This document shows positions 31,013-46,771 of a DNA stretch of 64,000 bases, piece by piece (within the stretch, counting starts at the first letter, position 1; each line of letters starts with the position of its first letter). This stretch comes from Rhizobium grahamii. Its GTDB lineage: Bacteria; Pseudomonadota; Alphaproteobacteria; Rhizobiales; Rhizobiaceae. The translations under genes and the position numbers were made by a program. The DNA is taken from contig NZ_CP043499.1 of the NCBI RefSeq assembly GCF_009498215.1, positions 1,562,001 through 1,626,000 of the forward strand, read 5' to 3'. The notes beneath the pieces were generated by a model. The model ran no database searches, was not told the origin of the DNA, and was given only the letters and a program-made list of their open reading frames with translations.

Positions 31013-31336
31013 TCACTTGTGCTTGAGGAGCCAAAGTTTGCCGGCCATCGTGATTTTCTGCGGAGCCGTCGCACCGGGCGAGCCGTCGACGCTCTCAAGA
31101 AGGCCAAGCTCTTGCAGCCGCTCGACGGTAGCGGTGGTTGCTGTTTTCACCTTGATCGGGCGCTCCTTGAATCGGTCCGAGCGTGCATACGTGACCGTCG
31201 CATCCAGGTGCGTCCAGGTCTTTGCATTCTGCGGATGGAGATCGCCCAGCTTCGCAAGTTTCAAGGCTGAGGTCTGACCCGGCGTCAAAGCGACTAGGAG
31301 CGCCTCCGAGGTGGCAGAGTTGGGAGCTTGGTTCAT
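31013..31336 (-). CDS. Hypothetical protein with a winged-helix-like C-terminus
   Basis: This 107-residue frame starts at an ATG at 31334-31336 with only a weak AGAAG upstream. No signal peptide or membrane segment is seen. The C-terminal part (TTATVERLQELGLLESVDG... KITMAGKLWLL) resembles the end of winged-helix regulators, with a helix, a wing and a TxAGxxWL-like strand-helix. The resemblance is by eye only. It stands alone between two non-coding stretches. Confidence 0.45.
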   Translation of the reverse strand: MNQAPNSATSEALLVALTPGQTSALKLAKLGDLHPQNAKTWTHLDATVTYARSDRFKERPIKVKTATTATVERLQELGLLESVDGSPGATAPQKITMAGKLWLLKHK

Positions 31337-31695: not shown

Positions 31696-33756
31696 TCATG
31701 ACACGACAACGCGAAACCCGTTGCCGCGCCAGAAGCCATCAGGCTCGAGGCTGCCGCGATAGGTGCAACACGCTTTCATCTTGTTGCTTGAAAAGCAACC
31801 GCCGCGCAGGACGCGGCGAACCGCTGGTCCCGCATCATCTGCCTCACGCCCATCGTCGCCATAGGGGTATCGGAAACTTGGCGTCGCCATGTCCTCGCCC
31901 CACAGTGTCGTACACCATTCCCACACCTGTCCGGTCATGTCGTAACAGCCAAAGGCGGAACGCCCCTTGGGAAACAGGCCGACGGTACAGGTGTTGTTCA
32001 GTCCCGCCTCTTCGGAATTAGCCGCATCCGCGATCCACTGGCGCCCCCAGGGATAGACGATCGTTTCCGCGCCTAAGTCGGGCTGGTCGCCACGCGCTGC
32101 CCGCTCCCATTCCGGTTCGGTCGGAAGCCGGACGATGTCGTCGGGGCCGATTTTTCCCTGCGCGCGCCAGCGATCGGTCAGCCAGTCGCAATAGGCTCGC
32201 GCATCGCGCCAGGTCAGATCGGTCGCCGGGGCGTTTCGGCGGTCCTCGGCGAGACCATCAGGGCTGCGCCAGAGCCGACCGGTATCGCGCGAGAAGGCGG
32301 CGTAGGCGGAATTGGTGACGGGATAGAGGCCGATGCGGAACGCCCCGACCTCGACCGCTTGCGGGGGCGCGGAATTCGGATGCGTATCGGAGCCGAGGAC
32401 ACACACACCCGCTGGCACTTGCGCGAGGGCCTCGAGGTCGCGCGGATCACCCCAGGCCGACAGTATTCGGCCGGCGCTTTCGCGCTCGGGGATCGACAGC
32501 GCACCATAGCCGACAATATCCAGAAGATGGACGGCGATACGATCCCTCGATGGTCCCGCCTGTGTTCCGAGGCCCGCCGCGAGCAATGCGCCACGGCGCG
32601 CGTCATCACCATCGCCCGCGATGAGCGCTTCGATGAGCGTATCCGCGGCTTCCGAACCCTTAAGGCGCCTGGCGAGACTTTGCAGGACCGGCATCCAAAG
32701 GGTGGGTCGCGAGCGGAACGCCTGAACGGCAGTCGCAGCAGGCAACGTGGACAAATGGCGCGCCGCCAACAATTGACGCACACGTGTCACCGGAAATAGC
32801 CCCGCTTCATCGAGTGTGCCCGAGAGCGCATCGAAGGCGAGCCCGCAAAGGAAATTGGCGGTTTGCGTGTCCCCGGCAAGCTTGGCCAGCCAACGATCCG
32901 TTATGGCCTCCGCGGTGTCACCCTCGTCGTGGCCATGAAGAGCCATCACGAACTGCGCCGGATTTCCGGCCGCCGCGCCAAGCGCTGCTCTCTCCTGTTC
33001 CAGATCAAGGCCGGCGAGTCTCTTGCCGGCTTCAAGCCGTTGAACCCGGGACAGCGGTAGCAAATCATAGCGCGCAAGAGCAGGCGGCAACGCCCAACTC
33101 TTCACGGCAGCCTGCTCCCCCAGCGCAAGCAGCCGAACGCGTGGGAAACGCGCCTGAAAAGCCAGTGCCTGCTCTAGCAGAACCGGCCCTTGATCACCGG
33201 CGGCCTCGATTCCGTCCAGCATCACAAGAAGGGTTGCATCCGACGCCACCCAAGCTTCACTCGACAGCAGGGTATCAAGGCCGGGTAGCACTTCGTCGAG
33301 CAATTCCCGGACGTCAACTCCGGGCTTGATTGCCACGTACAGCGGAAGAACGTGGTCGAGATCCCAATGCTCCTCATGCACGGCGCCGAATTCGTTGCGC
33401 GCCACTGGCAGCGGCACCAGACGTTCGCCAGCAAGCGCCAACGCCAGGTGCTGCGCGAAGCTGGTTTTGCCACCGCCGGTTTCCGCGGTCAGAACAAGGG
33501 ACGCATGATCACGCACCATCTCCAGCGCGGAGAAATACACCGCAGGTTCCGGCTCCGACTGGTCTTTGAGCTTTCGCAGGCCCTTGGCAGCCTTGTCCTC
33601 GAAGCTGAAGTTGACGAGCAGTGGAATATAGCCGGTCCGCAAGTCCGCAACGGATCCGTCTGGCAAGGTCAGCAGTGCGCGCTGCCCATACGCGCGCGCC
33701 CTGGAGAAGAGCGCATCGCGCAGACTGGCGGGGGTGGTCGTCCCAACTGACGTCAT
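31696..33756 (-). CDS. NACHT-type NTPase fused to an FGE-sulfatase (SUMF1-like) domain
   Basis: This is a 686-residue cytoplasmic fusion. Residues about 40-245 form a NACHT/STAND-like NTPase: a YIPL lead-in, Walker A AETGGGKTS (Lys97), Walker B LLVMLDGIE (Asp181), and the sensor region RLLALGEQAAV with LLPLSRVQRL. Residues about 250-445 are helical and leucine/alanine-rich, like HEAT-type repeats. Residues about 447-686 are a formylglycine-generating-enzyme-like domain: VPAGVCVLGSDTHP, FRIGLYPVTNSAYAAF, RLPTEPEWERAARG, GCYDMTGQVWEWC, and RVLRGGCFSSNKMKACC with terminal GFRVVVS. The two catalytic cysteines of true FGE are not at their usual places, so the domain may bind, not oxidise. Its ATG overlaps the VOC gene stop (TGATG), placing it at the end of the transporter operon. 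The C-terminus is not adenine-rich, so a retroelement target is unlikely. Confidence 0.85.
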   Translation of the reverse strand: MTSVGTTTPASLRDALFSRARAYGQRALLTLPDGSVADLRTGYIPLLVNFSFEDKAAKGLRKLKDQSEPEPAVYFSALEMVRDHASLVLTAETGGGKTSFAQHLALALAGERLVPLPVARNEFGAVHEEHWDLDHVLPLYVAIKPGVDVRELLDEVLPGLDTLLSSEAWVASDATLLVMLDGIEAAGDQGPVLLEQALAFQARFPRVRLLALGEQAAVKSWALPPALARYDLLPLSRVQRLEAGKRLAGLDLEQERAALGAAAGNPAQFVMALHGHDEGDTAEAITDRWLAKLAGDTQTANFLCGLAFDALSGTLDEAGLFPVTRVRQLLAARHLSTLPAATAVQAFRSRPTLWMPVLQSLARRLKGSEAADTLIEALIAGDGDDARRGALLAAGLGTQAGPSRDRIAVHLLDIVGYGALSIPERESAGRILSAWGDPRDLEALAQVPAGVCVLGSDTHPNSAPPQAVEVGAFRIGLYPVTNSAYAAFSRDTGRLWRSPDGLAEDRRNAPATDLTWRDARAYCDWLTDRWRAQGKIGPDDIVRLPTEPEWERAARGDQPDLGAETIVYPWGRQWIADAANSEEAGLNNTCTVGLFPKGRSAFGCYDMTGQVWEWCTTLWGEDMATPSFRYPYGDDGREADDAGPAVRRVLRGGCFSSNKMKACCTYRGSLEPDGFWRGNGFRVVVS

Positions 33757-34136
33757 CAGAACAGCTTTGCTACATCAGGATTATGAAAGCGCTGGATTTC
33801 GATCGCGTAGCCTGCCGGGTCCTCGAAGAAGAAGTGCTCGCAGTAATTGCCCCGCAATATTTCCGACAGGCCGGTCACGCCGGCATCCGACACGCGCTTA
33901 TGCCAACCTTCCACATCCTGCGCGACGATCGTCAGCAGGACCGCACTCTTTTGCTGATGCTTGAGGTGCCCGCGGTTGCCGTCGACGATACCAAAATAGC
34001 ACTTTCCAGCTATGCGATAGATGCGCGCGAGCCCCTGATCCAATACCAGCTCGAGACCCAATACATTCTCGTAGAACGGTGCGACGGCGTGGATATCTTC
34101 GTAATAGAAGAAGGTGATCGAGTAGTCCTTTTCCAT
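33756..34136 (-). CDS. VOC (glyoxalase/bleomycin-resistance) superfamily protein
   Basis: This is a 126-residue single-module VOC protein (ITFFYYEDIHAVAPFYENVL ... HFFFEDPAGYAIEIQRFHNP). The C-terminal Glu metal ligand (IEIQ) is present; the usual N-terminal His is not obvious. I start at the ATG at 34134-34136, which has AGGA seven bases upstream; an ATG at 34151 overlapping the binding-protein stop is the alternative. It lies between the second binding protein and the NACHT-FGE gene and overlaps both or nearly so. The reaction is unknown. Confidence 0.82.
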   Translation of the reverse strand: MEKDYSITFFYYEDIHAVAPFYENVLGLELVLDQGLARIYRIAGKCYFGIVDGNRGHLKHQQKSAVLLTIVAQDVEGWHKRVSDAGVTGLSEILRGNYCEHFFFEDPAGYAIEIQRFHNPDVAKLF

Positions 34137-34150
34137 TTTCGCGTCCTGCA

Positions 34151-35536
34151 TTATTCGATGTTTAGAGTGCCCTTGTGGTCGATCGTAAGACCGGCGATAC
34201 CCTTGCGCATCGCAAAGACGTCGATCGGATGGACCAGATACAGCCACGGCGGGTTCTGGTGGAGACGAGTGAGGCAGCGAGCGTAGGCGAGCTCCCTGGC
34301 ATCGTCGTCGACGGCACGGTTTGCAGCCGAAATCAGCCCCTCGGTCTCCAGATCGTCGAAACCTTGCCACCAGACCGCCTTTGTCGCGCTGGAGATCTTG
34401 TCGTTCAGGATGCGGAATGTGCTATGCGGCGACGAGTCGAAGATCGCCATGTCTCCCATTTCCTTGCGGCCGATCTGCCGGGCGTATTCGGGTCGATCGA
34501 GTTCGGTTTCGACCTCGACCTTGAGGCCGACCGCTTCGAGCGCAGCGCCGACGAAACGGCTGACTTCCGGCGCCCTCTCCGGCATGAACGTCGGGGTGCG
34601 CAAGGTCAAGGTAGCACCGGCATCGACGCCATCAAGCAGCCGCCGAGCCTTTTCTGGATCATAGGCGATCGGCCGCAGGTCGGCGCGCTTCGCACCAAGG
34701 TGGAATGGGCTGACGATTGTGGAGGATGGGACTGCCAGCCCGTGGAAGATCTCGTCGGCGATCAGTGCCGTATCGACCGCATGATTGACCGCCAAGCGCG
34801 CTTCGGGTGAGCGGAACATGCCCTGCTGGCAATTCAGGTAGTACATGACCGACAGCGTGTTGACGGCCTTTCCCCAAGCAAAATTCTCATCGAAATCAAA
34901 GCGCTTCTCGATCCGTTCCAGGTTGAGCGCTGCGTCGATGTCGCCGCATAGCAGGGAGTCGTAGCGCGCTTCAGCGTGTCGGTCGGCCAACGCGACGATC
35001 CGCTGTGGGCCGCTGCCCGAGCCGGCTTTCGCCAGCACCGCGCGCCTGCCCGCCTCGAACTCCTCGACGCGATAGCGGCCGGTGCCGAGGACGGGCAAGC
35101 CAACCTCGTCCAACCGGCAGATGTAAAACTCCGAGAAAATGTCGAGAATGTCGGCGATCGGCTCAGGGTTCTCTACCCGAACCACGCCCCCGCTCTCAGC
35201 GGTAATCCGGGCGTCGGCGAGATAACGCGCATAGGACCACTTCATCCCGAAGGTATCGACTGCCTGCAGAATACCATCGATAAAGCCGATGATATCCTCG
35301 GCCACGCACGGCTTCCCGTCATGGAACGTCGCGCCATCTCGAATGAAGAACCGCCAGATGCGACCGTCATCGGAATGAGACCAACGCGAGAACAGCGCCG
35401 GGCGTACAAACCCGTTATCCCATTTCAGAAGCGGTTCGAAAACGAGGTTCTTCAAGGTCAGAACACTGGTGTCGTCGGTGACACGCGTGGGCGGAAGAAA
35501 GTCGACTTTCTCGAGGCTGATCGTCAGTGTGTCCAA
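34151..35536 (-). CDS. SBP family 5 protein without signal peptide
   Basis: This 461-residue protein has the dipeptide/nickel-binding-protein fold (LVFEPLLKWDNGFVRPALFS, WRFFIRDGATFHDGKPCVAED). Family members are normally exported, but this one starts directly at the domain: MDTLTISLEKVDFLPPTRV. The start is TTG at 35534-35536 with GAGG five bases upstream; no upstream codons encode a signal peptide, since the permease gene ends seven bases before. It may be cytoplasmic, like SgrR C-terminal domains, perhaps sensing or handing over the substrate. A fully exported paralogue is at 37522-39084. Confidence 0.85.
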   Translation of the reverse strand: MDTLTISLEKVDFLPPTRVTDDTSVLTLKNLVFEPLLKWDNGFVRPALFSRWSHSDDGRIWRFFIRDGATFHDGKPCVAEDIIGFIDGILQAVDTFGMKWSYARYLADARITAESGGVVRVENPEPIADILDIFSEFYICRLDEVGLPVLGTGRYRVEEFEAGRRAVLAKAGSGSGPQRIVALADRHAEARYDSLLCGDIDAALNLERIEKRFDFDENFAWGKAVNTLSVMYYLNCQQGMFRSPEARLAVNHAVDTALIADEIFHGLAVPSSTIVSPFHLGAKRADLRPIAYDPEKARRLLDGVDAGATLTLRTPTFMPERAPEVSRFVGAALEAVGLKVEVETELDRPEYARQIGRKEMGDMAIFDSSPHSTFRILNDKISSATKAVWWQGFDDLETEGLISAANRAVDDDARELAYARCLTRLHQNPPWLYLVHPIDVFAMRKGIAGLTIDHKGTLNIE

Positions 35537-35543
35537 GATGACC

Positions 35544-36392
35544 TCAATCGAGTTCGCTGCGGCGACGCGGGTTGAACCAGTCCGCCAGGGAGTCGCCCAC
35601 CAGGTTGAAGGACAGGACGGCGAAAAGGATCGCCATACCGGGCGCCAGCGCTACCCAGGGAGCGCTGCGCACATATTGAAGGTTCGCCGACACATCCGCA
35701 CCCCACTCGGCCATCGGCGGCTGGGCGCCAAGACCCAGGAAGCCCAGGCTGGCGGTCTGCAGGATGGCACTGCCCAAAGCCAATGTCGATTGCACCAGAA
35801 GCGGCCCAAGGCCATTCACAAAGATGTAGCGAAAGAGGATGCGGCTATTCGGCAGCCCAAGCGAGACGGCGGCTTCGACATAGGGCTTGACCGAAACGCT
35901 GAGCGCCTGGCTGCGCGCGACACGCGCAAACTGAGGAGCAAGCGTGATCGCAACGGCAAGCATCGCATTTTGCAGGCTTGGACCGAATGCGGCCGCCAAG
36001 GCGATGGCGAGCACCAGTGCCGGAAAAGCCAGAATCGCGTCGACGATGCGCATGATGATGCTGTCCGTCCAGCCCCCCGCGAAACCGGCGATGGTGCCGA
36101 AGAACACACCGACGAGAAATGCGATGGCGACGACGCCCACGCCGATCGTCAAGGTAGCCCGCCCGCCATACATGATGCGCGTCAACACATCGCGGCCGAA
36201 GGCATCCGTGCCCAGCCAATGACTGACGCTTGGAGCGGCAAGCTTATGGAGGACATCGAGCTTGGTCGGCGAATACACGGTGATCATCGGCCCGATTGTG
36301 ATGAGCACGATCAGCGCGACGAGAATGCCAAGCCCGACAACTGCGAGCGTATTGCGTCTGAGAAACGTTACGAATTCGCGCATGACGTTCAC
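35544..36392 (-). CDS. Dipeptide/nickel-type ABC transporter permease (DppC type)
   Basis: This is a 282-residue permease. It has the DppC N-terminal segment (RRNTLAVVGLGILVALIVL), the GTDAFGRDVLTRIMYGGR motif typical of this subfamily, and later membrane segments. The GTG start overlaps the upstream permease stop (GTGA); an ATG nine bases on (36383) is an alternative. Confidence 0.93.
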   Translation of the reverse strand: MNVMREFVTFLRRNTLAVVGLGILVALIVLITIGPMITVYSPTKLDVLHKLAAPSVSHWLGTDAFGRDVLTRIMYGGRATLTIGVGVVAIAFLVGVFFGTIAGFAGGWTDSIIMRIVDAILAFPALVLAIALAAAFGPSLQNAMLAVAITLAPQFARVARSQALSVSVKPYVEAAVSLGLPNSRILFRYIFVNGLGPLLVQSTLALGSAILQTASLGFLGLGAQPPMAEWGADVSANLQYVRSAPWVALAPGMAILFAVLSFNLVGDSLADWFNPRRRSELD

Positions 36393-37399
36393 TTCATCTT
36401 CTTGCGGACGCGCGGGTCAAGGACGCCATAGAGCACGTCCACGATGATCGAGGTGATGACGAAAAGCAGCGCGAAGACCAGTGTCGTGCCCTGAATGACA
36501 GGATAGTCGCGGTTCTTGATCGCCTCGAACATGTAGCGGCCGATTCCGGGCCACGCGAAGATCGTTTCCGTCAGGATGGCGCCGCCGAGCATCTCGGCGA
36601 ATTTCAGCCCGATGACCGTTATCGCCGGCAGGAGCGAATTACGCAGGCCGTGATTGAGCACGACATCAGCGCGCCGCAGACCTTTTGCCCTGGCGGTACG
36701 AATGAAATCCTCACCCATGACATCGAGCATCGTGTTGCGCACGAAGCGTCCGAGCGTGGCGGCGAGGAAGGCGGCTAACACGGCGGTCGGGAGGATGAGA
36801 TGCTGCACTGCGCTCCAGGTCGCGGCGAGATCACCGGAGAGCAGGCCATCCAGAATGGCGAAGCCCGTTATGTGTTCCGCCGTGATGAAGGAGCTCATCC
36901 GCCCTGAAACCGGCAGCCAGCCGAGATAGGTCCCGAAGACCAGCTGCAGGATAAGTGCAAGCAGGAAGGCAGGCATCGAAACCCCGACCAGGGAAACAAC
37001 GCGCGTGATATGATCGAACAGCGAATTGGGCCTGATGGCGGAAAGAACGCCGATCGGAATGCCGAAAATCACGGCCACCATGACGGCGAACACCGACAAC
37101 TCGATCGTCGCCGGCAATCGCAGGACGATCTCCTGGGCAACGGGCAGGCCAGTCTTCAGCGACAATCCGAAATCGCCCTGCAGGAGCCCGCCGACATAGT
37201 GGAGGAACTGAAATACGACAGGCTGATCGAGATCGAGCTGAGCGCGCAGCGCATCGATCTGTGCTTGCGTCGCGCCGGGACCGAGCAGCGTGACAGCCGG
37301 ATCGCCCGGGATCAGCCGAACCAGGGAAAAAACGATGACAAGAACGATGCACATGACGGGTATCAGCGCGATCAGTCGTCGTATGATGAAACTCGCCAT
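36389..37399 (-). CDS. Dipeptide/nickel-type ABC transporter permease (DppB type)
   Basis: This is a 336-residue permease with the DppB opening FIIRRLIALIPVMCIVLVIV, then IPGDPAVTLLGPGAT, and the C-terminal DPRVRKKMK. The docking loop DFIRTARAKGLRRADVVLNH is clear. It follows the exported binding protein by 122 bases. Confidence 0.93.
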   Translation of the reverse strand: MASFIIRRLIALIPVMCIVLVIVFSLVRLIPGDPAVTLLGPGATQAQIDALRAQLDLDQPVVFQFLHYVGGLLQGDFGLSLKTGLPVAQEIVLRLPATIELSVFAVMVAVIFGIPIGVLSAIRPNSLFDHITRVVSLVGVSMPAFLLALILQLVFGTYLGWLPVSGRMSSFITAEHITGFAILDGLLSGDLAATWSAVQHLILPTAVLAAFLAATLGRFVRNTMLDVMGEDFIRTARAKGLRRADVVLNHGLRNSLLPAITVIGLKFAEMLGGAILTETIFAWPGIGRYMFEAIKNRDYPVIQGTTLVFALLFVITSIIVDVLYGVLDPRVRKKMK

Positions 37400-37521: not shown

Positions 37522-39084
37522 TCACTTCTTGTAGACGGACCAGTACTCGTTGAGCGGCGGTGCGCTGTTGACGACGAGTCCTTCGACATTGGCGCGCGTG
37601 AAGACGATCAGCTTGGGGCTGAAAAGATAGGCGCCCGGCACACGCTTGGCGATTTCTTCCTGAACCTCGAAATAGAGCTTCTTGCGAGCTTCCATATCCG
37701 ACGTCTGCTGCGCCTTGACGATCAGGTCATCGAGGTCCTTGTCTCCGGGCATGCGGAAGGTCATGGCTGTATCGGCTAGAGACGAGAGGTAGCCGATGGT
37801 GATGTGCGCATCCGGATCGTTGTACCAGGGCTGGCGACCATCGAGCGCGACATCGAATTGGCCCGATGTCTGCAACGCCCGCAACGCGGGGAACTCGGTC
37901 TGCTCGATCGTGGCGTTGATGCCGATGTCGGCGAGGTTCGCCTGGACGAAGGTGGCAACAGCACCCCAGAGCGGCCCCTGGAAGCTATAGAGTTTCAGGT
38001 TGATGCTGGACGGATCGACGCCGGCTTCCACCAGAAGCTTCTTGGCCAGTTCCGGATCATAGGCCGGTGCAAGTTCCTTCATCTTCGGATTGAACGCCCA
38101 GCTGTTGCTGGTCAGAGGACCGTAAACCCGCTCGGCAGTGCCACCGAAGACGCCCTGCAAAAGGCCGTCATAGTCGATCGCATGCGCGATCGCTTCGCGT
38201 GCCTTGACGTTGGCGAAAGGCCCATCCTTCTTGTTGTTGTTGAACTCGAGCTGGCGGATGATCTGGCTCGATGTTTCGAGTACCTTCACATCCTTGTTGC
38301 CCTTCAGCGCTTCGATATCTTCGGCGGCGATCGCCGACAGCTGGCCCTGCTGCTGAACGATGTCCACACCGCCGCTCTCAAGCTCGAGCCGGCGCGTCGA
38401 GGCGTCTGGAATGACGCGGTAGATGATCTTGGAAAGCTTGGGCGCACCTCGGAAATAATCCGGGTTGGCCTCGAGAACGACGTTCGTGTCGGCCTGGGCG
38501 CTCTTGAACACAAAAGGACCAGTACCGACGGGATTGGCGGCAAACTTGTCGCCATACTTTTCGACCGCGGTCGGGCTGACGATTGCCGACTGTGGCTGCG
38601 CCAGGATCGACAGGAATGCCGGATAGGCCGCCGTGAGGGTGATTTTCACCTCGCTCGGCGACACCACGGAGATATCCTTGATGAGGTCGAAGGTCGCCTT
38701 GACGTAGGAATTCGTTGCCTTGGTGCGTTCGAGCGAGAACTTCACGGCAGCCGCATCAAAAGGCGTACCGTCCTGGAATTTCACGCCATCACGGAGCTTG
38801 AAGTCGAACTGCTTGCCATCCGCGGAAACAGTCCAGCCCGTAGCAAGGCGCCCCTCAAGATCCTTGAAGTCAGGCGCCGTCCACGCAACCAGCGTGTCAA
38901 AGACGTTCAGAATGATCTCGCTGCCGACAGGCTCGGCCTTGTTGGTGCCGGGCTCGAGGCTGACGGGATCCGAGGGAACGGCAACGACCAGCGTCTTCAA
39001 CTGTTCCGCACTCTGCGCCATCGCGTTACCCGCAACGAGCGGCAAGGCCACCATCGCTGCCAAAAATCCCTTCCAGACTTTCAT
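37522..39084 (-). CDS. Exported SBP family 5 solute-binding protein
   Basis: This is a 520-residue periplasmic protein. The ATG at 39082-39084 has AGGGG six bases upstream; the signal peptide is MKVWKGFLAAMVALPLVAGN ending AMA-QSA. Family motifs are LVAWTAPDFKDLEGRLATGW and FKLRDGVKFQDGTPFDAAAV. It captures peptides or other small cationic or cyclic compounds for the DppBC-type permeases. An operator-like site lies 77 bases upstream of the start. Confidence 0.92.
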   Translation of the reverse strand: MKVWKGFLAAMVALPLVAGNAMAQSAEQLKTLVVAVPSDPVSLEPGTNKAEPVGSEIILNVFDTLVAWTAPDFKDLEGRLATGWTVSADGKQFDFKLRDGVKFQDGTPFDAAAVKFSLERTKATNSYVKATFDLIKDISVVSPSEVKITLTAAYPAFLSILAQPQSAIVSPTAVEKYGDKFAANPVGTGPFVFKSAQADTNVVLEANPDYFRGAPKLSKIIYRVIPDASTRRLELESGGVDIVQQQGQLSAIAAEDIEALKGNKDVKVLETSSQIIRQLEFNNNKKDGPFANVKAREAIAHAIDYDGLLQGVFGGTAERVYGPLTSNSWAFNPKMKELAPAYDPELAKKLLVEAGVDPSSINLKLYSFQGPLWGAVATFVQANLADIGINATIEQTEFPALRALQTSGQFDVALDGRQPWYNDPDAHITIGYLSSLADTAMTFRMPGDKDLDDLIVKAQQTSDMEARKKLYFEVQEEIAKRVPGAYLFSPKLIVFTRANVEGLVVNSAPPLNEYWSVYKK

Positions 39085-39160
39085 TCTACGCCCCTTTCGT
39101 AGTCGTGGCTCTCGCTCAAAAGCCGGTTTCATCAATACCGGCACTTCTTAGCCAATCCGT

Positions 39161-39334: not shown

Positions 39335-40192
39335 TCAAAGCGGATCCGCGCCTGTTATCACCGGACGTGTCGGATCGCTGATCCAGGCAGACCAGGAACC
39401 GGGGTACATGGCTGCCTCGACGCCGATCGAGGCAAGCGCCAGAACAGTATGTGCGGCCGACATGCCGGCCCCGCAATAAACACCGACCGGGCACGATCCA
39501 TCCGCGCCGAGCGCACGATACATTTCCGCCAGCGTGGCTGCATCTGTGAAATTGCCATAGTCGGTGAGGTTGTCAGGCGCCGGCGCGCTGATTGCATAAG
39601 GAATATGCCCTCGTGCCGGCTGCCCTGGCGCGACCGCGCCGCCGATGTAATTGGGCCTGATGCGTGCATCGAGCAACACCGCTTCCTTGCCGAGGCGCAA
39701 GGCAGTATCCGCATCGAGCTCTGGCATATTGCCGATGGATAGTGTGATTTCGCTTCGCTGCGGCGTCGCAACCTTGTCCGTCACAGGAAGTCCGGCAGCC
39801 CGCCACGCCGGCATGCCACCGTCAAGCACACGAACATCCGGCAGACCTGCCCATCGCAGCACCCACCACGCCCGCGCCGCCGTCATGCTTCGATCACCGT
39901 CATAAACGACGACGGTGCTCTCCTTGCGCAGCCCCCAGCGGCGAGTTTTCTCCTGCAGAACAAGAATATCGGGCAAGGGTCGCTGCCCACCCTCGAAGGA
40001 GGCAGGCGCCTGAAAGTCAGTATAGGCTTCCGTGTCAATTGCCCCATCGATACGCGACCCGTTAAAGGACGGGGCACCCGTATAGGGATTGATCGAATGA
40101 ACAGCGAGCAAGGTGATATCCGCACCGGATCTGCGGAGCTCATCCAATTCGACGGGTGTCAGAAGAACTTTTTTTCGGACGTCGTCGACCAT
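39335..40192 (-). CDS. 3-mercaptopyruvate/thiosulfate sulfurtransferase (SseA-like rhodanese)
   Basis: This 285-residue protein has two rhodanese domains. The N-terminal one is inactive (VVYDGDRSMTAARAWW has no Cys at the active position). The C-terminal one carries the catalytic Cys in VYCGAGMSAAHTVLAL. The active loop CGAGMS differs from both the E. coli SseA and bovine rhodanese types, so substrate preference is uncertain. The start is the ATG at 40190-40192; a TTG 51 bases upstream lies in a GGAGG-containing stretch but seems less likely. It heads the minus-strand operon and shares a short divergent promoter, with operator site B, with the ABC ATPase. Confidence 0.88.
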   Translation of the reverse strand: MVDDVRKKVLLTPVELDELRRSGADITLLAVHSINPYTGAPSFNGSRIDGAIDTEAYTDFQAPASFEGGQRPLPDILVLQEKTRRWGLRKESTVVVYDGDRSMTAARAWWVLRWAGLPDVRVLDGGMPAWRAAGLPVTDKVATPQRSEITLSIGNMPELDADTALRLGKEAVLLDARIRPNYIGGAVAPGQPARGHIPYAISAPAPDNLTDYGNFTDAATLAEMYRALGADGSCPVGVYCGAGMSAAHTVLALASIGVEAAMYPGSWSAWISDPTRPVITGADPL

Positions 40193-40261
40193 GGCGCCAA
40201 CTTCTTTACAAGCTGAGGAATTTGACCATCCTCCTTCATCCAATGCAGCTTGGCAAGCTGA

Positions 40262-40281: not shown

Positions 40282-40339
40282 ACGACCTTTCATATCCTGT
40301 ATGAACGTCGACAGCCCTACCGCCACAGGAGCGTCCCGC

Positions 40340-42133
40340 GTGACCATCTTATCCGTCGAGCATCTGACAACCTCCTTTCGTCGAGGCGGAGAATGGACGC
40401 CCGTCGTCAACGATGTCAGCCTGACGGTGGCAGCCGGCGAGACGGTGGCGATCGTTGGCGAGTCCGGCTCCGGAAAGAGCGTGACGGCAATGTCGATCAT
40501 GCGCCTGCTGCCGGAAAAGACCTCTCGGATCGAAGGTAGCGTCAAGCTCGGCGGCAGGGAGCTTTTGACGGTACCCGAGCGCGAGATGCAGGACATCCGG
40601 GGCAACGAGGTCGCGATGATCTTTCAGGAGCCGATGACCTCCCTCAATCCGGTCCTCACTGTCGGTCGTCAGATCGCGGAGGCAATCCGGCGCCATCGCG
40701 GGGTTAGCGCCGGTGAAGCCCGCGCGCAGACAATCGCCTTGCTGGACCGCGTACGCATTCCGGCGGCTACAAAGCGTTTCGATGAATATCCACACGAGCT
40801 TTCCGGCGGCACGCTGCAACGTGTGATGATCGCCATGGCGCTGGCCTGCAGACCTAAGCTTCTGATCGCCGACGAACCGACCACCGCGCTTGACGTAACC
40901 GTTCAGGCCGAAATCCTTGGGCTCATCAAGAGTCTCCAGGATGAAGAACAGATGGGCGTGCTCTTCATTACCCACGACATGGGCGTTGTCGCCGAGATCG
41001 CCGACCGGACTGTGGTGATGTTCCGCTCGCGCGCGCTGGAAAGCGGTCCCACAGATTCGATCTTTGCCGAGCCCGAGAACGCCTATACGAAGGCCCTGCT
41101 CTCAGCCGTACCGAAACTCGGCACGATGACTGGCCGCACGAATCCCGCGACCTTTCCGCTGGTCGACGTCCAAAGCGGCCTTGCGCTTGGAGAGCGCGAA
41201 GTCGCTCGGGCCGGCGAGCGCAACGTTCTTGAGGTCAGCAACCTCGTCGCACGGTTCGACATCAAGAGCGGCGTACTCGGTCGCGTAACCGGTCGCGTGC
41301 ACGCGGTTGAGGACGTCTCGTTCGACCTGAAGGAGGGCGAAACCCTTTCGCTGGTCGGAGAATCCGGTTGCGGCAAGTCAACGACCGGCCGCGCGGTGCT
41401 CCGGCTCATCGAACCCGTCAGCGGCAGGATCCACATCAATGGCGAGGACATCGGCGCGATGACGCCGGCAATGCTGACGCGCCAGCGCCGCCAGATGCAG
41501 ATGATCTTTCAGGATCCCTATTCCAGCCTCAACCCACGCATGCGCGTCGGCGATGCCATTGCGGAGCCCTTGATCGCTCATGGATTGGCCTCAAAGATGG
41601 AAGCCAGAGCAAAAGCCGTGGACCTCCTCGAGCGGGTTGGCCTAAAGGCAGATATGGCGCGACGCTTTCCGCATGAATTCTCCGGCGGCCAGCGCCAGCG
41701 CATCAGCATCGCGCGCGCCTTGACCCTGAACCCGAACCTGATTGTCGCTGACGAGGCCGTCTCCGCGCTTGACGTATCGATCAAGGCTCAGGTGGTGAAC
41801 CTGATGTTGGAACTCCAGGAAAGCCTGAAGATCGCCTATCTCTTCATCAGCCACGACATGGCTGTCGTCGAGCGCGTGAGCCACCGCGTCGCGGTCATGT
41901 ATCTCGGCGAGATCGTAGAAATCGGGTCGCGCGAGCAGATTTTCGCGAGCCCGCAGCATGCCTACACGAAGCGACTACTGGATGCCGTTCCGATTGCTGA
42001 CCCGAGCCGCCGACACGTCCGCACGCGCCAGCCCGGCATCGAACTCGGAAGCGCCATAAGGCCGGCGAACTACGCCCCGCTGAAGGCGACCTATCGCGAG
42101 GCGGCACCGGGCCACCTCGTTAAGCAAGGCTAG
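40340..42133 (+). CDS. Dipeptide/nickel-type ABC transporter ATPase, fused DppD-DppF type
   Basis: This is a double ATPase of about 597 residues, as in GsiA. Half one has Walker A GESGSGKSVT, signature LSGGTLQRVMIAMA (normally LSGGMRQR or similar) and Walker B LLIADEPTTALD. Half two has GESGCGKSTT, FSGGQRQRISIARA and LIVADEAVSALD, where Ala replaces the usual Pro. Both halves have the oligopeptide-transporter C-terminal extension (YTKALLSAVP, YTKRLLDAVP). I start at the GTG at 40340, which has AGGAG eight bases upstream and gives MTILSVEHLTTSF; the ATG at 40301 lacks a ribosome site and lies only 20 bases from operator site B. It powers the permeases encoded divergently. Confidence 0.92.
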   Translation: MTILSVEHLTTSFRRGGEWTPVVNDVSLTVAAGETVAIVGESGSGKSVTAMSIMRLLPEKTSRIEGSVKLGGRELLTVPEREMQDIRGNEVAMIFQEPMTSLNPVLTVGRQIAEAIRRHRGVSAGEARAQTIALLDRVRIPAATKRFDEYPHELSGGTLQRVMIAMALACRPKLLIADEPTTALDVTVQAEILGLIKSLQDEEQMGVLFITHDMGVVAEIADRTVVMFRSRALESGPTDSIFAEPENAYTKALLSAVPKLGTMTGRTNPATFPLVDVQSGLALGEREVARAGERNVLEVSNLVARFDIKSGVLGRVTGRVHAVEDVSFDLKEGETLSLVGESGCGKSTTGRAVLRLIEPVSGRIHINGEDIGAMTPAMLTRQRRQMQMIFQDPYSSLNPRMRVGDAIAEPLIAHGLASKMEARAKAVDLLERVGLKADMARRFPHEFSGGQRQRISIARALTLNPNLIVADEAVSALDVSIKAQVVNLMLELQESLKIAYLFISHDMAVVERVSHRVAVMYLGEIVEIGSREQIFASPQHAYTKRLLDAVPIADPSRRHVRTRQPGIELGSAIRPANYAPLKATYREAAPGHLVKQG

Positions 42134-42148
42134 CGAACCAGTTTCTCG

Positions 42149-42883
42149 TCAAAGAGTGAAACCGCCCTGCGCGTTTGAAATCAGCGCGTTGAGCAAACCC
42201 TTACGTGTATTTTCATTGTGATCGACCATTGCCGCGCGCGCCTTGTCACTGTCGCGCTGGCGCAGGACGGTGACGATCCGATGATGGTCGTTGGCCGTCT
42301 CGGGATTAATGTCCCGAATTCTCGTCCCCATGTAGAAGAGGCGTGCGCACTCCTCGAGATGGCTCATCACCAGGGAGTGCAGGCGCGGGTTACGCGATCC
42401 GCGCGCGATCGCCGAGTGAAATTCCTCATTGGAATCGACGAAGGTCTTCGTGCTGACATTCTCGCCCACGACATAGCTGGCGTTGGCCAGTTGATCGAGC
42501 GCATCCAGTTCTGCCTCGGTCAGGTTCCTCGCGGCAAGTGCGGCAGCCGTTCCCTCGAGCATGCCGCGAACCGCAAAGAGGTCGTTCATATCGTTGACGG
42601 TAACCGGCTTGACGCGATAGCCGCGCCGCGGGAACGCTTCCATGAACCCTTCGACACACAGACGCGCCAGCGCCTCGCGAACAGGGGTCTTGCTCATTTC
42701 AAGCTTCTCGGCGAGTTCGGGTTCGGAGACCGCCATGCCCGGCGCCAACTGGCCGACGATGATCCGCTCCCGCAAGATTACATAGGCTTGCTCCGTCAGC
42801 GATTTCGCCCGTCTTTCCGACGTCGGCCCCGACCTGTCAGTCCTGTTCAAAACCCGTCTCCCATCCGACCACAACAGGGCCAC
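42149..42883 (-). CDS. GntR-family (FCD) regulator, likely of the racemase/transporter regulon
   Basis: This regulator is up to 244 residues long. The winged helix is at about 28-95 (LTEQAYVILRERIIVGQLAP, MSKTPVREALARLCVEGFME, FPRRGYRVKPV) and the FCD sensor domain at about 100-235. The GTG start at 42883 has a weak ribosome site; TTG at 42850 has GGGAGA six bases upstream and may be the true start. It converges on the ABC ATPase and diverges from the racemase operon. Operator site C lies between it and the racemase, so it is the natural candidate to bind sites A, B and C. Confidence 0.9.
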   Translation of the reverse strand: MALLWSDGRRVLNRTDRSGPTSERRAKSLTEQAYVILRERIIVGQLAPGMAVSEPELAEKLEMSKTPVREALARLCVEGFMEAFPRRGYRVKPVTVNDMNDLFAVRGMLEGTAAALAARNLTEAELDALDQLANASYVVGENVSTKTFVDSNEEFHSAIARGSRNPRLHSLVMSHLEECARLFYMGTRIRDINPETANDHHRIVTVLRQRDSDKARAAMVDHNENTRKGLLNALISNAQGGFTL

Positions 42884-43001: not shown

Positions 43002-43047
43002 TTGATTGCGCAATCACTATGGCTGCGCACGAACCCAAGGGTGCGTC

Positions 43048-43710
43048 GTGTCCGACATTCTTGTCATCAACCCCAACAGCTCTACTTCGGTCACCCTTTC
43101 CATGGAGGCATGTCTGAGCCCCATCCGGGCCGTGACAGCGCATAGGATCCAATGTGTCGAGCTTGCGAAATCGCCCCCTGGGATCGAGACGGACGCACAC
43201 GTCAACGAGGTCATCCCAAACATCGTCGAAGCAATTTCGGCGTCATCGGCCGATGCCTTCGTACTTGCCTGTTTCTCTGACCCCGGCATAAAGCATGTGC
43301 GGAAGCTGTCGGACCGTCCGGTTCTCGGTATTGCCGAATCCGCCTACCTAGCCGCCATCGGCCTTGGAGCACGATTTGGGATCATCTCGCTCGGCCCCTC
43401 CTCGATCGCCCGCCACCTGCGTTACCTCAAGGAACTGCAACTCGAGCGCCGCCTCGCCGGCGATCGCTCGATCGACATGACGGTCGTTGAGCTGATGTCG
43501 GGCAACGTCGTCGAGACAGTATCGCGGACCGGCCGCCTTTTGCGCGACGAGGATGGCGCCGATGTTGTCATTCTCGGGTGCGCCGGCCTCGGCGCTTATA
43601 GAACTGCCCTGCAGGACAGCCTGGGCATTCCCGTCGTCGATCCGGTTCAGGCCGGCGTCGCGCTTGCCTGCACCAATCTGGACCTCGCTTACGGAAAGAC
43701 GAAGCAATGA
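43048..43710 (+). CDS. Asp/Glu/hydantoin racemase family protein
   Basis: This is a 220-residue cytoplasmic cofactor-free racemase. Both catalytic cysteines are visible (VLACFSDPGIK and VILGCAGLGAYR), and the opening ILVINPNSSTSVT is typical of hydantoin and allantoin racemases. The start is the GTG at 43048 with AAGGG six bases upstream; an upstream TTG at 43006 would overlap the promoter near site C. The last bases overlap the next gene (ATGA), which encodes a hydantoinase-like enzyme, so racemisation of a 5-substituted cyclic amide is the likely role. Confidence 0.9.
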   Translation: MSDILVINPNSSTSVTLSMEACLSPIRAVTAHRIQCVELAKSPPGIETDAHVNEVIPNIVEAISASSADAFVLACFSDPGIKHVRKLSDRPVLGIAESAYLAAIGLGARFGIISLGPSSIARHLRYLKELQLERRLAGDRSIDMTVVELMSGNVVETVSRTGRLLRDEDGADVVILGCAGLGAYRTALQDSLGIPVVDPVQAGVALACTNLDLAYGKTKQ

Positions 43711-45071
43711 CGTTTGATCTTGTAGTACGCGGCACCGTTGTCCTTCCGGACGGGCCGGCTGAAGATAGCTGGGTCGCCGTCAGCGACGGCAAGATCGCAG
43801 CCATCGGAACCAGAAACGCACCCGCGGCGAGGGAAATCTTCGACGCCGGCGACGATCTGATCATACCCGGCGTCGTCGATGGCCAGACGCATGCCTGCAG
43901 CTATGGCGGCCTTCCCGGCATCCGGTCAACGACGCGCTCGGCGATCGCCGGCGGCGTGACGACGATCGTCGACATGCCCTATGACAACCCGGCTCCACTG
44001 AACACGCTGGAGCGCCTTGTCGACAAGATCGCCGCCATCAACGAGCACGCCCATGCCGACGTCGCGCTCTACGGCACAATAATGCCCGGCCAGACGACTG
44101 ACGACATCGAACCGCTGATCGAAGGCGGTGTGGTTGCGTTCAAGATTTCCACCTTCGAAAGCAGCCCGACGCGCTTTCCCCGCATTGCCTCCGACCAGGT
44201 CCTCGCAACGTTTCTCGCACTTCGCGACACGAGCGTTCCGCTCGGCGTGCATAATGAAGACCAGGAGATCGTCAGGGCTTATATCGCCGCTGCGAAAGCC
44301 TCAAACCGCAATGGCATCGAGGCGCACTCCGGGAGCCGACCGCCGGCGGCCGAACTGGCCGCAACAGCCCAGTTCCTTGAGCTTGGGGCGGCTTCTGGCG
44401 CCCATGCGCATATCGTCCACCTGACGACGCCGCGCGGCTTTCAACTCGTCGACAATTACCTTGCCGACGGTTTCAGGGCCACCGGCGAACTCTGCGTTCA
44501 TTACCTCTGGTTCGACCCGGATCGTGACGGCGCCGAGCTCGGCGCCCGCATGAAGGTCAACCCGCCGATCCGCCCCGGCCAGATCGACGCCCTGTGGGAT
44601 GAGATTCTCTCTGGCCGTGTCGCCTTTGTCAGCTCCGACCATTCGAGTTGGCCCGTCGATAACAAGTTCACGCCGTCGATCTTCGACGCGGGTGCCGGCG
44701 TGCCGGGGCTGGAAACACTGCTTCCCGCTTTCTACACGGCGGCAGACAACCGCGGCCTCGATGCGGCAGCGATCACCGTCGAGCAGCTTTGCGAGCGCCC
44801 CGCGAAATTCTTTGGCCTCTGGCCGAAAAAGGGTGCGATCCGGCTGGGCGCGGATGCCGACCTGGCAGTTCTCTCACGCAGGCCGCAGGTATGGGATTCG
44901 TCCCGGGCCCATGACGAGCTCTGCTGGAGCCCCTTTGATGGCCGCGCATTCTGCGTGACCGTCACCCGCACCTATCTTGGTGGGCAACTCGCCTGGGACG
45001 GCGTCGCCGTCGTCAACAACCCCGGAGCCGGGCGCTTTGTTCGCCGTGGCAGCTCTCACTGGTTTGAATAG
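43707..45071 (+). CDS. Allantoinase/dihydropyrimidinase-like amidohydrolase with altered metal site
   Basis: This is a 454-residue TIM-barrel cyclic amidohydrolase. Most binuclear metal residues align: His62, carbamylated Lys146 (VAFKISTFE), His182 (GVHNEDQE), His238 (HIVHLTTPRG) and Asp311 (VSSDHSSW). The first His of the HxH motif is Gln60 (VDGQTHACSYG). MKVNPPIRP near 282-290 is typical of allantoinase and dihydroorotase relatives. It is translationally coupled to the racemase. It probably opens a cyclic amide ring, but the altered ligand makes the metal content and exact reaction uncertain. Confidence 0.87.
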   Translation: MTFDLVVRGTVVLPDGPAEDSWVAVSDGKIAAIGTRNAPAAREIFDAGDDLIIPGVVDGQTHACSYGGLPGIRSTTRSAIAGGVTTIVDMPYDNPAPLNTLERLVDKIAAINEHAHADVALYGTIMPGQTTDDIEPLIEGGVVAFKISTFESSPTRFPRIASDQVLATFLALRDTSVPLGVHNEDQEIVRAYIAAAKASNRNGIEAHSGSRPPAAELAATAQFLELGAASGAHAHIVHLTTPRGFQLVDNYLADGFRATGELCVHYLWFDPDRDGAELGARMKVNPPIRPGQIDALWDEILSGRVAFVSSDHSSWPVDNKFTPSIFDAGAGVPGLETLLPAFYTAADNRGLDAAAITVEQLCERPAKFFGLWPKKGAIRLGADADLAVLSRRPQVWDSSRAHDELCWSPFDGRAFCVTVTRTYLGGQLAWDGVAVVNNPGAGRFVRRGSSHWFE

Positions 45072-45086
45072 GATCGGATAGCCATC

Positions 45087-46013
45087 ATGCCGCTCATCAC
45101 ATCAGACAGCCAAGGCGTCTTCGTCATTGCCGTCACGCCGTTCAATGAAAACGGATCGCTCGACACCAACAGCATCGATCGCATGGTCGATTTCTACTAC
45201 GAGAAAGGCGCCGATGGCCTGACCATTCTCGGCATGATGGGCGAGGCGCCAAAGCTTACGCAGGCGGAGTCCATCGAGGTCGCGCGCCAGACGCTGAAGC
45301 GCTCGGGCAGCCGTCCCGTTGTCGTCGGCGTTTCCGCGCCGGGACTTGCCGCGATCGGAGAACTAACCAAAGCCGTGATGGATATCGGAGCGGCCGGCGT
45401 CATGGTGGCTCCTCCCTCGTTGCTGCGCACCGACGACCAGATCATCGGCTATTATCGCAATGTTGTCGAAACCGTCGGCAGTGATGTCCCTGTCGTGCTG
45501 CAGGACTTCCCGCTTTCGACCGGAGTCCAGATTAGCTCGAAGACGCTCGGAGCGATCATCGAAGCGCACCCGAGTATCGTCATGGTGAAGCACGAGGACT
45601 GGCCGGGCCTTCAGAAGATAACAGATCTGCGCGAAGCCGAAGCCAAGGGCCGTCGGCGCGTTTCGATCCTGTGCGGCAATGCTGGCATCTTTCTGCCGGA
45701 AGAAATGCAACGCGGTGCCGATGGCGCAATGACGGGCTTCCCCTACCCGGAGATGATGGTGGACGTTTGCCGTCTCAGCCGCGACGGCAGGTATGAAGAG
45801 GCACAGGATGTCTTCGACGCCTACCTGCCGCTAATGCGATACGAACAGCAGCCGGGTCTTGGCCTCGCGGTGCGCAAATATGTGCTTGCCAAGCGAGGCG
45901 CGATCGCGAGCGCAGCGCAGCGGCGTCCGGGAATGGCGCTGAGCGCCCAGGCGGTTGCGGAAGTCGAAAAACTCATCGAACGACAGGAACGCAAGTTGGA
46001 GGCGTTGACATAA
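45087..46013 (+). CDS. DHDPS/DapA-family lyase, divergent
   Basis: This 308-residue protein keeps the Schiff-base Lys168 (IVMVKHEDWPG) but not the other DHDPS residues. The position of the catalytic Tyr is Gln139 (VVLQDFPLS) and the GTTGEG loop reads GMMGEA. It therefore probably forms an imine with a keto acid, but cleaves or condenses something other than the DHDPS substrates. It overlaps the next gene by one base (TAATG). Confidence 0.85.
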   Translation: MPLITSDSQGVFVIAVTPFNENGSLDTNSIDRMVDFYYEKGADGLTILGMMGEAPKLTQAESIEVARQTLKRSGSRPVVVGVSAPGLAAIGELTKAVMDIGAAGVMVAPPSLLRTDDQIIGYYRNVVETVGSDVPVVLQDFPLSTGVQISSKTLGAIIEAHPSIVMVKHEDWPGLQKITDLREAEAKGRRRVSILCGNAGIFLPEEMQRGADGAMTGFPYPEMMVDVCRLSRDGRYEEAQDVFDAYLPLMRYEQQPGLGLAVRKYVLAKRGAIASAAQRRPGMALSAQAVAEVEKLIERQERKLEALT

Positions 46014-46771
46014 TGGATCTGCAGATTTCAGGAAAGAAGGCGCTCGTTCTCGGCGCAAGTCGTGGCCTCGGCGCAGCAATTGCGAAGGGTCTGGCCGATG
46101 AGGGCGTGCAGGTATTCGCGGCCGCCCGCAGCGCCGGCAAGATCCCGCCTCACGCCAACGTCACGCCCGTCGCCGTTGATCTCGCCGACCAGGCTTCCGT
46201 CGCCGCTCTCATCGCAACGCTTTCTGAGCAGGGCGGCGTCGACATTCTCGTCAACAACTCCGGTGGTCCCAAGGCAGGCCCGGCGCTCGGCCAGGCGCGC
46301 GACAGCTGGCGCTCGACGTTCGACGCGATGGCTACATCGATCTTCGATATCTCCAACGCGATGCTTCCAGGCATGATCGAGCGCAAGTGGGGCCGCATCA
46401 TTACGATCGGCAGCTCCGGCATTGAACAGCCGATCCCAAATCTTGCCCTGTCCAACGGCGTACGCGCCGCGATCGCCGGCTGGTCGAAGACCTTGGCGAG
46501 CGAGGTCGCGCAGCATGGCGTCACCGTCAACATGATCTTGCCCGGACGGATCGACACGGACCGCGTGCGCGAGCTCGACGGCATCAAGGCCCAGCACACC
46601 GGCGCAAGCGTCGAAGCCGTGCAGGAAGCATCGCGCAATGACATTCCCGCGCGCCGCTATGGCAAGCCCGAGGAATTTGCTGCCGTTGCCGTCTTTTTGG
46701 CGAGCGCCCAGGCAAGTTATGTGACAGGCTCTGCCATCCGCGTCGACGGCGGTATGATCAAGGGGTTATGA
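46013..46771 (+). CDS. SDR-family oxidoreductase lacking the canonical Tyr-x-x-x-Lys
   Basis: This is a 252-residue Rossmann-fold protein. The nucleotide-binding GASRGLG (14-20), the NNSGG motif (81-85) and the C-terminal VTGSAIRVDGGMIKGL are present. At the catalytic site the usual YxxxK reads SNGVR (Ser147, Arg151), after IGSSG. Some SDR subgroups share this, so it may use a different proton relay or bind without catalysis. It overlaps both neighbours by a few bases within the operon. Confidence 0.87.
   Translation: MDLQISGKKALVLGASRGLGAAIAKGLADEGVQVFAAARSAGKIPPHANVTPVAVDLADQASVAALIATLSEQGGVDILVNNSGGPKAGPALGQARDSWRSTFDAMATSIFDISNAMLPGMIERKWGRIITIGSSGIEQPIPNLALSNGVRAAIAGWSKTLASEVAQHGVTVNMILPGRIDTDRVRELDGIKAQHTGASVEAVQEASRNDIPARRYGKPEEFAAVAVFLASAQASYVTGSAIRVDGGMIKGL

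Follow-up and report, generated by a model that had tools for sequence, protein, structure and literature searches.

What does a NACHT-type ATPase fused to an FGE-like domain do at the end of a solute-import operon? The question is raised by a 64,000-nucleotide stretch of Rhizobium grahamii DNA (contig NZ_CP043499.1, positions 1,562,001 to 1,626,000; hereafter the window, with positions counted from its first letter). One of its genes encodes a 686-residue protein, here called NACHT-FGE after its NACHT nucleotide-binding module and its C-terminal domain of the formylglycine-generating enzyme (FGE) type. It is the last of seven genes on the minus strand, in the order rhodanese, SBP5a, two permeases, SBP5b, VOC and NACHT-FGE, where SBP5a and SBP5b are solute-binding proteins (SBPs) of the SBP_bac_5 family. 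The best explanation, offered tentatively and with slightly less than even confidence, is that NACHT-FGE is a metabolite-responsive switch of the NOD-like receptor (NLR; NACHT/STAND) type, related to immune switches of animals and plants, that serves a nutrient-uptake and catabolic system. The open reading frame (33756-31696, minus strand) has no internal stop, and its parts are as follows.

31696..33756, minus strand: NACHT-FGE protein, 686 amino acids, last gene of the operon (open reading frame, Pfam, predicted models)
33037..33621, minus strand: NACHT nucleotide-binding domain (NBD), about residues 46-240 (nSTAND3/NACHT Pfam matches and NLR fold; boundary approximate)
33463..33486, minus strand: Walker A, A91-T98, AETGGGKT (the window protein and all 19 readable relatives have GK[ST])
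33214..33216, minus strand: Walker B aspartate D181 (invariant in 14 sequences; aspartate in all 21 rows aligned)
32437..33036, minus strand: predicted helical HD1 / winged-helix / HD2 region, about residues 241-440 (most NLR structural alignments extend to residues 380-445)
31705..32427, minus strand: FGE-like domain of C-type-lectin fold, residues 444-684 (PF03781 1.5e-39; separate model)
31753..31806, minus strand: RGGCFSSNKMKACCTYRG, segment matching the FGE active site but lacking its catalytic cysteine pair (an RGG-anchored alignment sets Ser657 on Cys336; Cys654 is invariant)

An earlier note on this DNA, made from the sequence alone, had called a fusion of a NACHT ATPase, a helical middle and an FGE-like domain. 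The fusion is borne out, by profile for the FGE-like end and by the predicted NLR fold for the rest. The FGE-sulfatase family PF03781 scores 136.6 bits against a cut-off of 23.3, whereas the NACHT assignment is weak by sequence and strong by predicted fold. In the window protein, the Pfam families nSTAND3 (3.9e-4) and NACHT (E=0.23) both stay below their cut-offs. A search of 14 family members at E<=1 recovered NACHT in 13 (best 5.8e-6) and nSTAND3 in 12 (best 1.7e-7). The P-loop and the acidic Walker B residue of NACHT/STAND NTPases are both present; the Walker A of one relative, L107, is unreadable because its frame is broken. A full-length AlphaFold2 model from 14 sequences has block means of 70-94 for the predicted local distance difference test (pLDDT) across residues 71-430. 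In a Foldseek search of the PDB with this model, 20 of the best 21 rows were named NLRC4, NOD2 or NLRP3 entries, and the other was a mouse oocyte lattice entry. NLRC4 led at 4.9e-8, and clamp-loader and other AAA+ chains came after the NLR rows; whole-length TM-scores were low (0.21-0.37 by query length). VIA-align matched NLRC4 (Z 23.3, 384 residues, root-mean-square deviation (rmsd) 5.2), NOD2 (Z 20.8, 328 residues, rmsd 4.4) and NLRP3 (Z 20.8, 351 residues, rmsd 5.3), mostly inside residues 4-445, and gave lower scores to Avs4 (11.8) and a MalT-MalY entry (11.7). Because the NLR alignments span it, the helical middle belongs to an NLR-type module, and the predicted model shows the NOD fold (NBD, HD1, winged helix and HD2).

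NACHT-FGE thus appears to share the NOD module of NLRC4, NOD2 and NLRP3 over about residues 4-445. Unlike the animal NLRs, it carries an FGE-like domain instead of leucine-rich repeats, has no CARD or PYD match and lies in a bacterial metabolic setting. Only about 45 residues precede the NBD. They have no Pfam (E<=1) or PADLOC match, and so offer no counterpart to the effectors or effector-associated domains (EADs) of STAND-FGS systems. The Pfam scan gave no effector domain in the protein, and no signal sequence was noticed.

The FGE-like domain is the better-defined half by sequence, with PF03781 matching 14 of 14 family members. The FGE half of the full-length model was poorly predicted (pLDDT block means 30-73), so this part was judged from a separate model of 45 sequences (pLDDT 87.8, predicted TM-score 0.90). 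Its best structural matches are ToxD (Z 29.4), PorK (26.5), TvpA (26.4), a Treponema protein of a diversity-generating retroelement (DGR), and human FGE (26.0), and the structures of PvdO, CalU17, EgtB, OvoA and SenA also lie near it. The domain shares the fold of SUMF1 and bacterial FGE (Z about 24-26) but does not keep their Cys336/Cys341 pair. An RGG-anchored alignment sets Ser657 of the window protein on Cys336; among 20 readable sequences, the window protein included, 19 have serine and 1 has glycine there, and Cys341 falls in a gap. A HMMER alignment to the C341S mutant 2afy contains a three-residue gap that puts Cys654 on Cys336 and Lys659 on Cys341. The catalytic pair of the human enzyme is therefore missing under either alignment, in agreement with the earlier note, which had found the FGE cysteines out of their standard places. 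A true FGE enzyme was rejected on this ground. All 20 readable sequences have Cys654 and Cys604, whereas 19 have Cys590, 16 have Cys664 and 15 have Cys663, and a single-cysteine or other metal site in the domain is conceivable.

The FGE domain is also the slowest-evolving part of the protein. Mean pairwise identity over 14 sequences is 74.7% in the FGE domain, 53.3% in the NBD and 49.7% in the helical region. The ratio of nonsynonymous to synonymous rates (omega) was estimated for seven pairs chosen from 91, several of the distant ones having a synonymous divergence (dS) above 1. It is 0.05-0.11 in the FGE domain (six usable pairs, the window and L007 giving no usable FGE dS), 0.09-0.27 in the NBD and 0.19-0.30 in the helical region. 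Such constraint would be expected of a domain that binds a fixed ligand and is the reverse of a diversified antigen sensor.

The ATG of the NACHT-FGE gene overlaps the VOC stop codon (TGATG), an overlap that the earlier note described and that is real. Membership in an operon with a solute importer, also claimed there, holds as well. The order and strand of the seven genes are kept in 20 of 20 relatives, the opposite of the situation that would have told against the claim, namely homologues never found beside such operons. These relatives come from genome contigs (10, 61-91% identical), the family scan (3), plasmids (6) and the order scan (1), and are at most 91% identical to the window protein and at most 89% to one another. 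Their hosts include Rhizobiaceae, three unplaced ‘Rhizobiales bacterium’ isolates, Terrirubraceae (Terrarubrum flagellatum) and Roseobacteraceae (Alloyangia pacifica). The genome from the order scan (G693) belongs to another family within the same taxonomic order and could itself be Terrirubraceae. At the Alloyangia locus (L103), tblastn covers the FGE half only (62% identical); it was counted as a relative on the strength of an annotated gene (589 amino acids) with a visible P-loop. L107, on a plasmid of Neorhizobium sp. EC2-8, entered the synteny count and was left out of the residue and distance counts. L104, on a plasmid of Rhizobium sp. BG6, carries a 100% identical protein and was left out of the 20 as near-identical to the window. 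Where junctions were counted by eye, the VOC and NACHT-FGE genes overlap by at most 4 bases (TGATG, TAATG or ATGA) in 9 of 13 relatives; in L006, L008, L012 and L013 the genes are separated by a short gap or the start is ambiguous. Loci that lie further apart in the NACHT part tend to lie further apart in the remaining proteins of the operon as well (pairwise distances, Spearman 0.85-0.94, 20 taxa, permutation p 0.002). A promoter and terminator scan stayed at shuffle level (3 against 3.0; 11 against 9.5) and was not used. The remaining operon genes are these.

33756..34157, minus strand: VOC (glyoxalase/dioxygenase superfamily) protein (PF00903 6.4e-8; start codon inferred)
34151..35536, minus strand: SBP5b, SBP_bac_5 protein without visible signal peptide, predicted cytosolic, TTG start (PF00496 2.5e-38)
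35544..36392, minus strand: ATP-binding cassette (ABC) permease, OppC/DppC/NikC type (profile matches)
36389..37399, minus strand: ABC permease, OppB/DppB/NikB type (profile matches)
37522..39144, minus strand: SBP5a, periplasmic SBP_bac_5 protein with signal-like N-terminus, true start perhaps ATG 39084 (PF00496 1.1e-92)
39335..40243, minus strand: rhodanese / 3-mercaptopyruvate-sulfurtransferase (MST)-like protein, first operon gene, true start probably slightly inside (PF00581 1.8e-21; NCBIfam MST 4.7e-28, below cut-off)

Upstream of the operon, farther along the window, lie genes for an importer ATPase, a regulator and a set of enzymes.

40301..42133, plus strand: GsiA-like protein of two fused ABC ATPases, transcribed divergently to the operon (profile matches)
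42149..42883, minus strand: GntR/FCD regulator (Pfam)
43006..43710, plus strand: Asp/Glu/hydantoin racemase family protein (PF01177 2.6e-50)
43707..45071, plus strand: amidohydrolase, nearest to ErtD hydantoin-5-propionate amidohydrolase (NF058538 6.2e-149, 496.6 bits, below the cut-off of 600)
45087..46013, plus strand: DHDPS-family lyase/aldolase (PF00701 1.9e-33)
46013..46771, plus strand: short-chain dehydrogenase (profile match)
46768..47916, plus strand: PatB/MalY-family C-S lyase (TIGR04350 417.7 bits, cut-off 340; PDB PatB 9.6e-81, MalY 6.3e-54)

Two of these genes were followed in the relatives. In 8 of 10 genome-contig relatives, about 8.2-10.0 kb separate the amidohydrolase gene from that of NACHT-FGE, a shared contig being read from matching coordinates and gene order. 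The best copies in the L006 and L008 genomes are just 63-64% identical, and linkage is not demonstrable there. Overall the amidohydrolase is linked in 18 of 20 relatives, with partial genes in Alloyangia. A nearby C-S lyase gene was matched in 7 of the 9 relatives whose flanks were long enough (L073, L090 (for L009), L106, L107, L109, L110 and L120). In L120 it follows the NACHT-FGE gene directly on the same strand, with aligned ends 23 bases apart.

Together, the linked genes, among them those for the racemase, the amidohydrolase (a putative cyclic-amide hydrolase) and the C-S lyase, suggest catabolism of a sulfur-containing, hydantoin-like compound, and we infer that the substrate may be sulfur-containing, hydantoin-like or a cyclic amide. 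Ergothioneine catabolism was not adopted as the pathway; the amidohydrolase is nearest ErtD yet below the cut-off of that model. The literature on ergothionase and thiourocanate, or on ergothioneine with hydantoin-5-propionate, gave no such cluster in the titles and abstract openings of the matches listed. The amidohydrolase at 43707-45071 may define a sister pathway to ergothioneine use.

A switch built from these parts would work as follows. The FGE-like domain would bind one fixed ligand, which could be the compound taken up or a product of its breakdown and might be presented to it by the signal-less SBP5b. Binding would open an ADP-bound NACHT module, leading to nucleotide exchange and oligomerisation. 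The active form, having no fused effector, would act on operon partners such as the ABC ATPase, the cytosolic SBP, the C-S lyase or the GntR regulator, and this action would tune uptake or catabolism in the way that MalT is tied to MalK and MalY. That the protein may sense a transported compound was already suggested in the earlier note. The suggestion fits the data and leads among the readings, as an inference and not a demonstration.

MalT is the closest functional parallel considered. It is a STAND regulator of maltose use that is held at the membrane by the transporter ATPase MalK and kept inactive by the C-S lyase MalY (PMC10427625). In both cases a STAND protein goes together with nutrient use, an importer ATPase of the ABC type and a C-S lyase of the PatB/MalY family, here by the nearby position of the genes. 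A MalT-like control circuit is plausible because the importer ATPase and a MalY-family lyase are both present. However, MalT carries its sensor at the C-terminus and also has a domain that binds DNA, of which no counterpart was found in NACHT-FGE. MalT also belongs to another NOD clade.

A more specific form of the proposal, which we regard as unlikely, is that of a nutritional NLR. Here an effector-less NACHT switch with a lectin-fold metabolite sensor would gate the ABC importer and the sulfur-compound pathway by direct, nucleotide-dependent contact with operon partners. The partners would be the transporter ATPase, the cytosolic SBP, which would deliver the ligand, and a MalY-type C-S lyase, which would keep the switch inactive. 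The architecture of a conflict sensor would then have been turned to metabolic control, or would derive from it.

Several observations weigh against a metabolite-responsive switch. The Pfam scan of the window protein gives no helix-turn-helix (HTH) or other DNA-binding family, which makes the output step a guess; a weak match named for a winged HTH (best 0.006) occurs in 3 of 14 family members. Neither the sensor-1 arginine nor the winged-helix histidine is evident by eye. The NACHT half evolves fast, and an LLAARH-like stretch of the helical region is absent in L073, L074 and L103; this divergence could mean weak constraint on switching. Strong conservation of the FGE domain would suit an enzyme equally well. 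The correlation of evolutionary distances speaks for joint inheritance and not for interaction, since host ancestry contributes to it. The MalT parallel has no counterpart in sensor fold or HTH, the cluster lyase is nearer PatB than MalY in the PDB comparison, and the lyase was not found nearby in T. flagellatum and L108, the other 2 of the 9 relatives with enough flank.

The main rival is possible, though we consider it somewhat doubtful. In this explanation the sulfur-compound pathway would use the FGE-like domain as a tailoring enzyme, catalytic or metal-binding, and the NACHT part would be just a regulatory or assembly appendage. Among solved structures, ToxD of Burkholderia glumae, a protein of toxoflavin biosynthesis (PDB 7spq; 246 residues, 33% identity), comes closest to the domain; its match covers residues 405-686 and includes the helical segment before the FGE domain. 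Of the related proteins, ToxD, PvdO and CalU17 come from metabolite clusters. The adjacent genes suggest sulfur chemistry, the domain is under the strong purifying selection described above, and the alignment to 2afy would leave one of its invariant cysteines, Cys654, at the Cys336 position. ToxD has no NACHT module and serves a different pathway, and no literature naming both ToxD and formylglycine was found. Against an enzyme, the copper-binding cysteine pair of FGE is kept under neither alignment, and no catalytic residue set was recognised.

A sulfoxide synthase like EgtB or SenA was rejected as a candidate, since the NCBIfam models score far below their cut-offs (SenA 60.8 bits against 420, EgtB 57.9 against 360) and DinB gives no match. 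In EgtB, OvoA and SenA a DinB domain precedes the FGE domain, and it supplies the iron ligands of EgtB. No DinB match was obtained for the window protein, nor in the 25 of 39 Pfam families listed for the 14 members, which also counts against the main rival. A further difficulty for an enzyme with a mere appendage is that the P-loop is kept in every readable copy, which argues that the NACHT part matters.

The signal-less SBP5b suggests another role for NACHT-FGE. In the window, the SBP5b gene starts directly after the permease gene. Its N-termini lack a signal sequence by eye in 11 aligned proteins, in 3 more and in 2 on plasmids, and the N-terminus of SBP5a is signal-like in the window and in two plasmid loci. 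Little else would account for such an SBP in an importer operon, and SBP5b, VOC and NACHT-FGE could form a cytosolic complex that hands over or protects a reactive imported compound and uses ATP for assembly. The three genes are adjacent and often overlap, and their evolutionary distances are correlated. However, distant SBP5b relatives (30-34% identical) in four other family genomes (L098-L101) adjoin ABC ATPases, and flanks of about 1.5 kb gave no match to NACHT-FGE or VOC there. We judge such a carrier or scaffold improbable. As an observation in its own right, these proteins, together with those of L079-L081, mark an SBP_bac_5 subfamily without visible signal peptide, predicted to be cytosolic, that extends outside the NACHT-FGE cluster. 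The class scan with SBP5b gave three distant relatives (31-33% identical), in whose surroundings (L082-L084) no cluster VOC, NACHT-FGE, permease or rhodanese gene was matched.

The domain pair itself has been described. STAND NTPase-FGS fusions are widespread in bacterial and archaeal lineages and are interpreted, mainly from their domain content, as sensors of invaders; EADs, effectors or DGRs often accompany them (PMC8195603, PMC7159879, PMC10907252). Like NACHT-FGE, they combine a STAND or NACHT NTPase and a C-terminal FGE domain of C-type lectin fold in one protein. The published conflict proteins often have N-terminal effectors or EADs and a DGR proposed to diversify the FGE domain, whereas none of these was found for NACHT-FGE. 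Its FGE domain is instead the conserved part, inside a catabolic import operon. The earlier note knew of no described system with this arrangement. That statement stands for the operon context, for which no STAND-FGE description was found in the open-licence literature among the matches listed. It does not stand for the STAND-FGE fusion, which is already published (PMC8195603).

Could NACHT-FGE then be an anti-phage or conflict sensor that happens to lie in this operon? Published descriptions of the same domain pair in conflict proteins (PMC8195603, PMC10907252) favour such a role, as does the NACHT half, which is the fastest-evolving part of the operon block (45.9% mean identity). However, no PADLOC match appeared at E<=1, no effector or EAD was found, and the genome gave no match to the reverse transcriptase family RVT_1 in a search whose control recovered a match in 3 of 14 known genomes. 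The FGE domain is conserved and not hypervariable in the manner of DGR targets, and the gene is tied to metabolic genes in 20 of 20 relatives. Defence is thus very unlikely, and the earlier note's alternative that the protein may protect the locus finds no backing, given the missing PADLOC and effector matches and a putative sensor that is the most conserved part.

Weakest of all is an unrelated gene that hitch-hiked into the operon by chance, an idea that the divergence of the NACHT part and a genome keeping just a 45-residue remnant of the FGE end (G009) might favour but that is hardly credible against conservation in 20 of 20 relatives over several families, the start-codon overlap, the correlated distances and the joint presence in the same four family-scan genomes.

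The ligand of this STAND-FGE protein should be tractable, as it is probably a small molecule with a defined importer and a defined set of breakdown genes. The function of FGE domains in STAND proteins would become directly testable, and the case could show NLR-type switches serving nutrition in a way that differs from the transcription factor MalT. A second oddity is the signal-less SBP of the operon, which may belong to the same machine as NACHT-FGE.

The system is sparse, as judged from the few full-length copies in four genome scans; the scans score the first few candidates per genome, and absences are not strict. The family scan (199 genomes) gave full-length NACHT-FGE in 4 (G000, G020, G070 and G161), and these are also the four with a close match to SBP5b (E<1e-150) and the four with one to SBP5a (E<1e-120). 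The order scan found it in 2 of 297 genomes, the window's own and G693, and the class scan (289 genomes) gave the window's own as the sole full-length copy. The phylum scan (398 genomes, E<=1e-35) gave the window's own and G020, plus two FGE-only matches. FGE-only matches were not counted as relatives; they make up most of the matches in 66 of 199 and 103 of 289 genomes, for example L017, L019, L117 and L118, and the plasmid hits H8-H11.

Some loci stand apart from this pattern. In G009 (L076:15368-15502), which was left out of the 20 relatives, the 45-residue remnant of the NACHT-FGE C-terminus is 89% identical, and its contig has no match to the VOC, SBP5b, rhodanese or SBP5a genes of the operon; it is a possible trace of loss. 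In L107, several cluster genes including NACHT-FGE are in broken pieces or frames, through assembly errors or decay. Downstream of the NACHT-FGE gene in the window, a 107-residue open reading frame (31013-31336) has no Pfam or NCBIfam match; it is 95% identical in L004 and, L004 aside, does not appear in the tblastn rows of the relatives. Finally, 23 window proteins (22962-49929) are 99-100% identical to those of the Rhizobium sp. BG6 plasmid pRPC (L104; 1.95 Mb). Because of this near-identity and the 1.96 Mb length of its own contig (C2), the window probably sits on a large secondary replicon.

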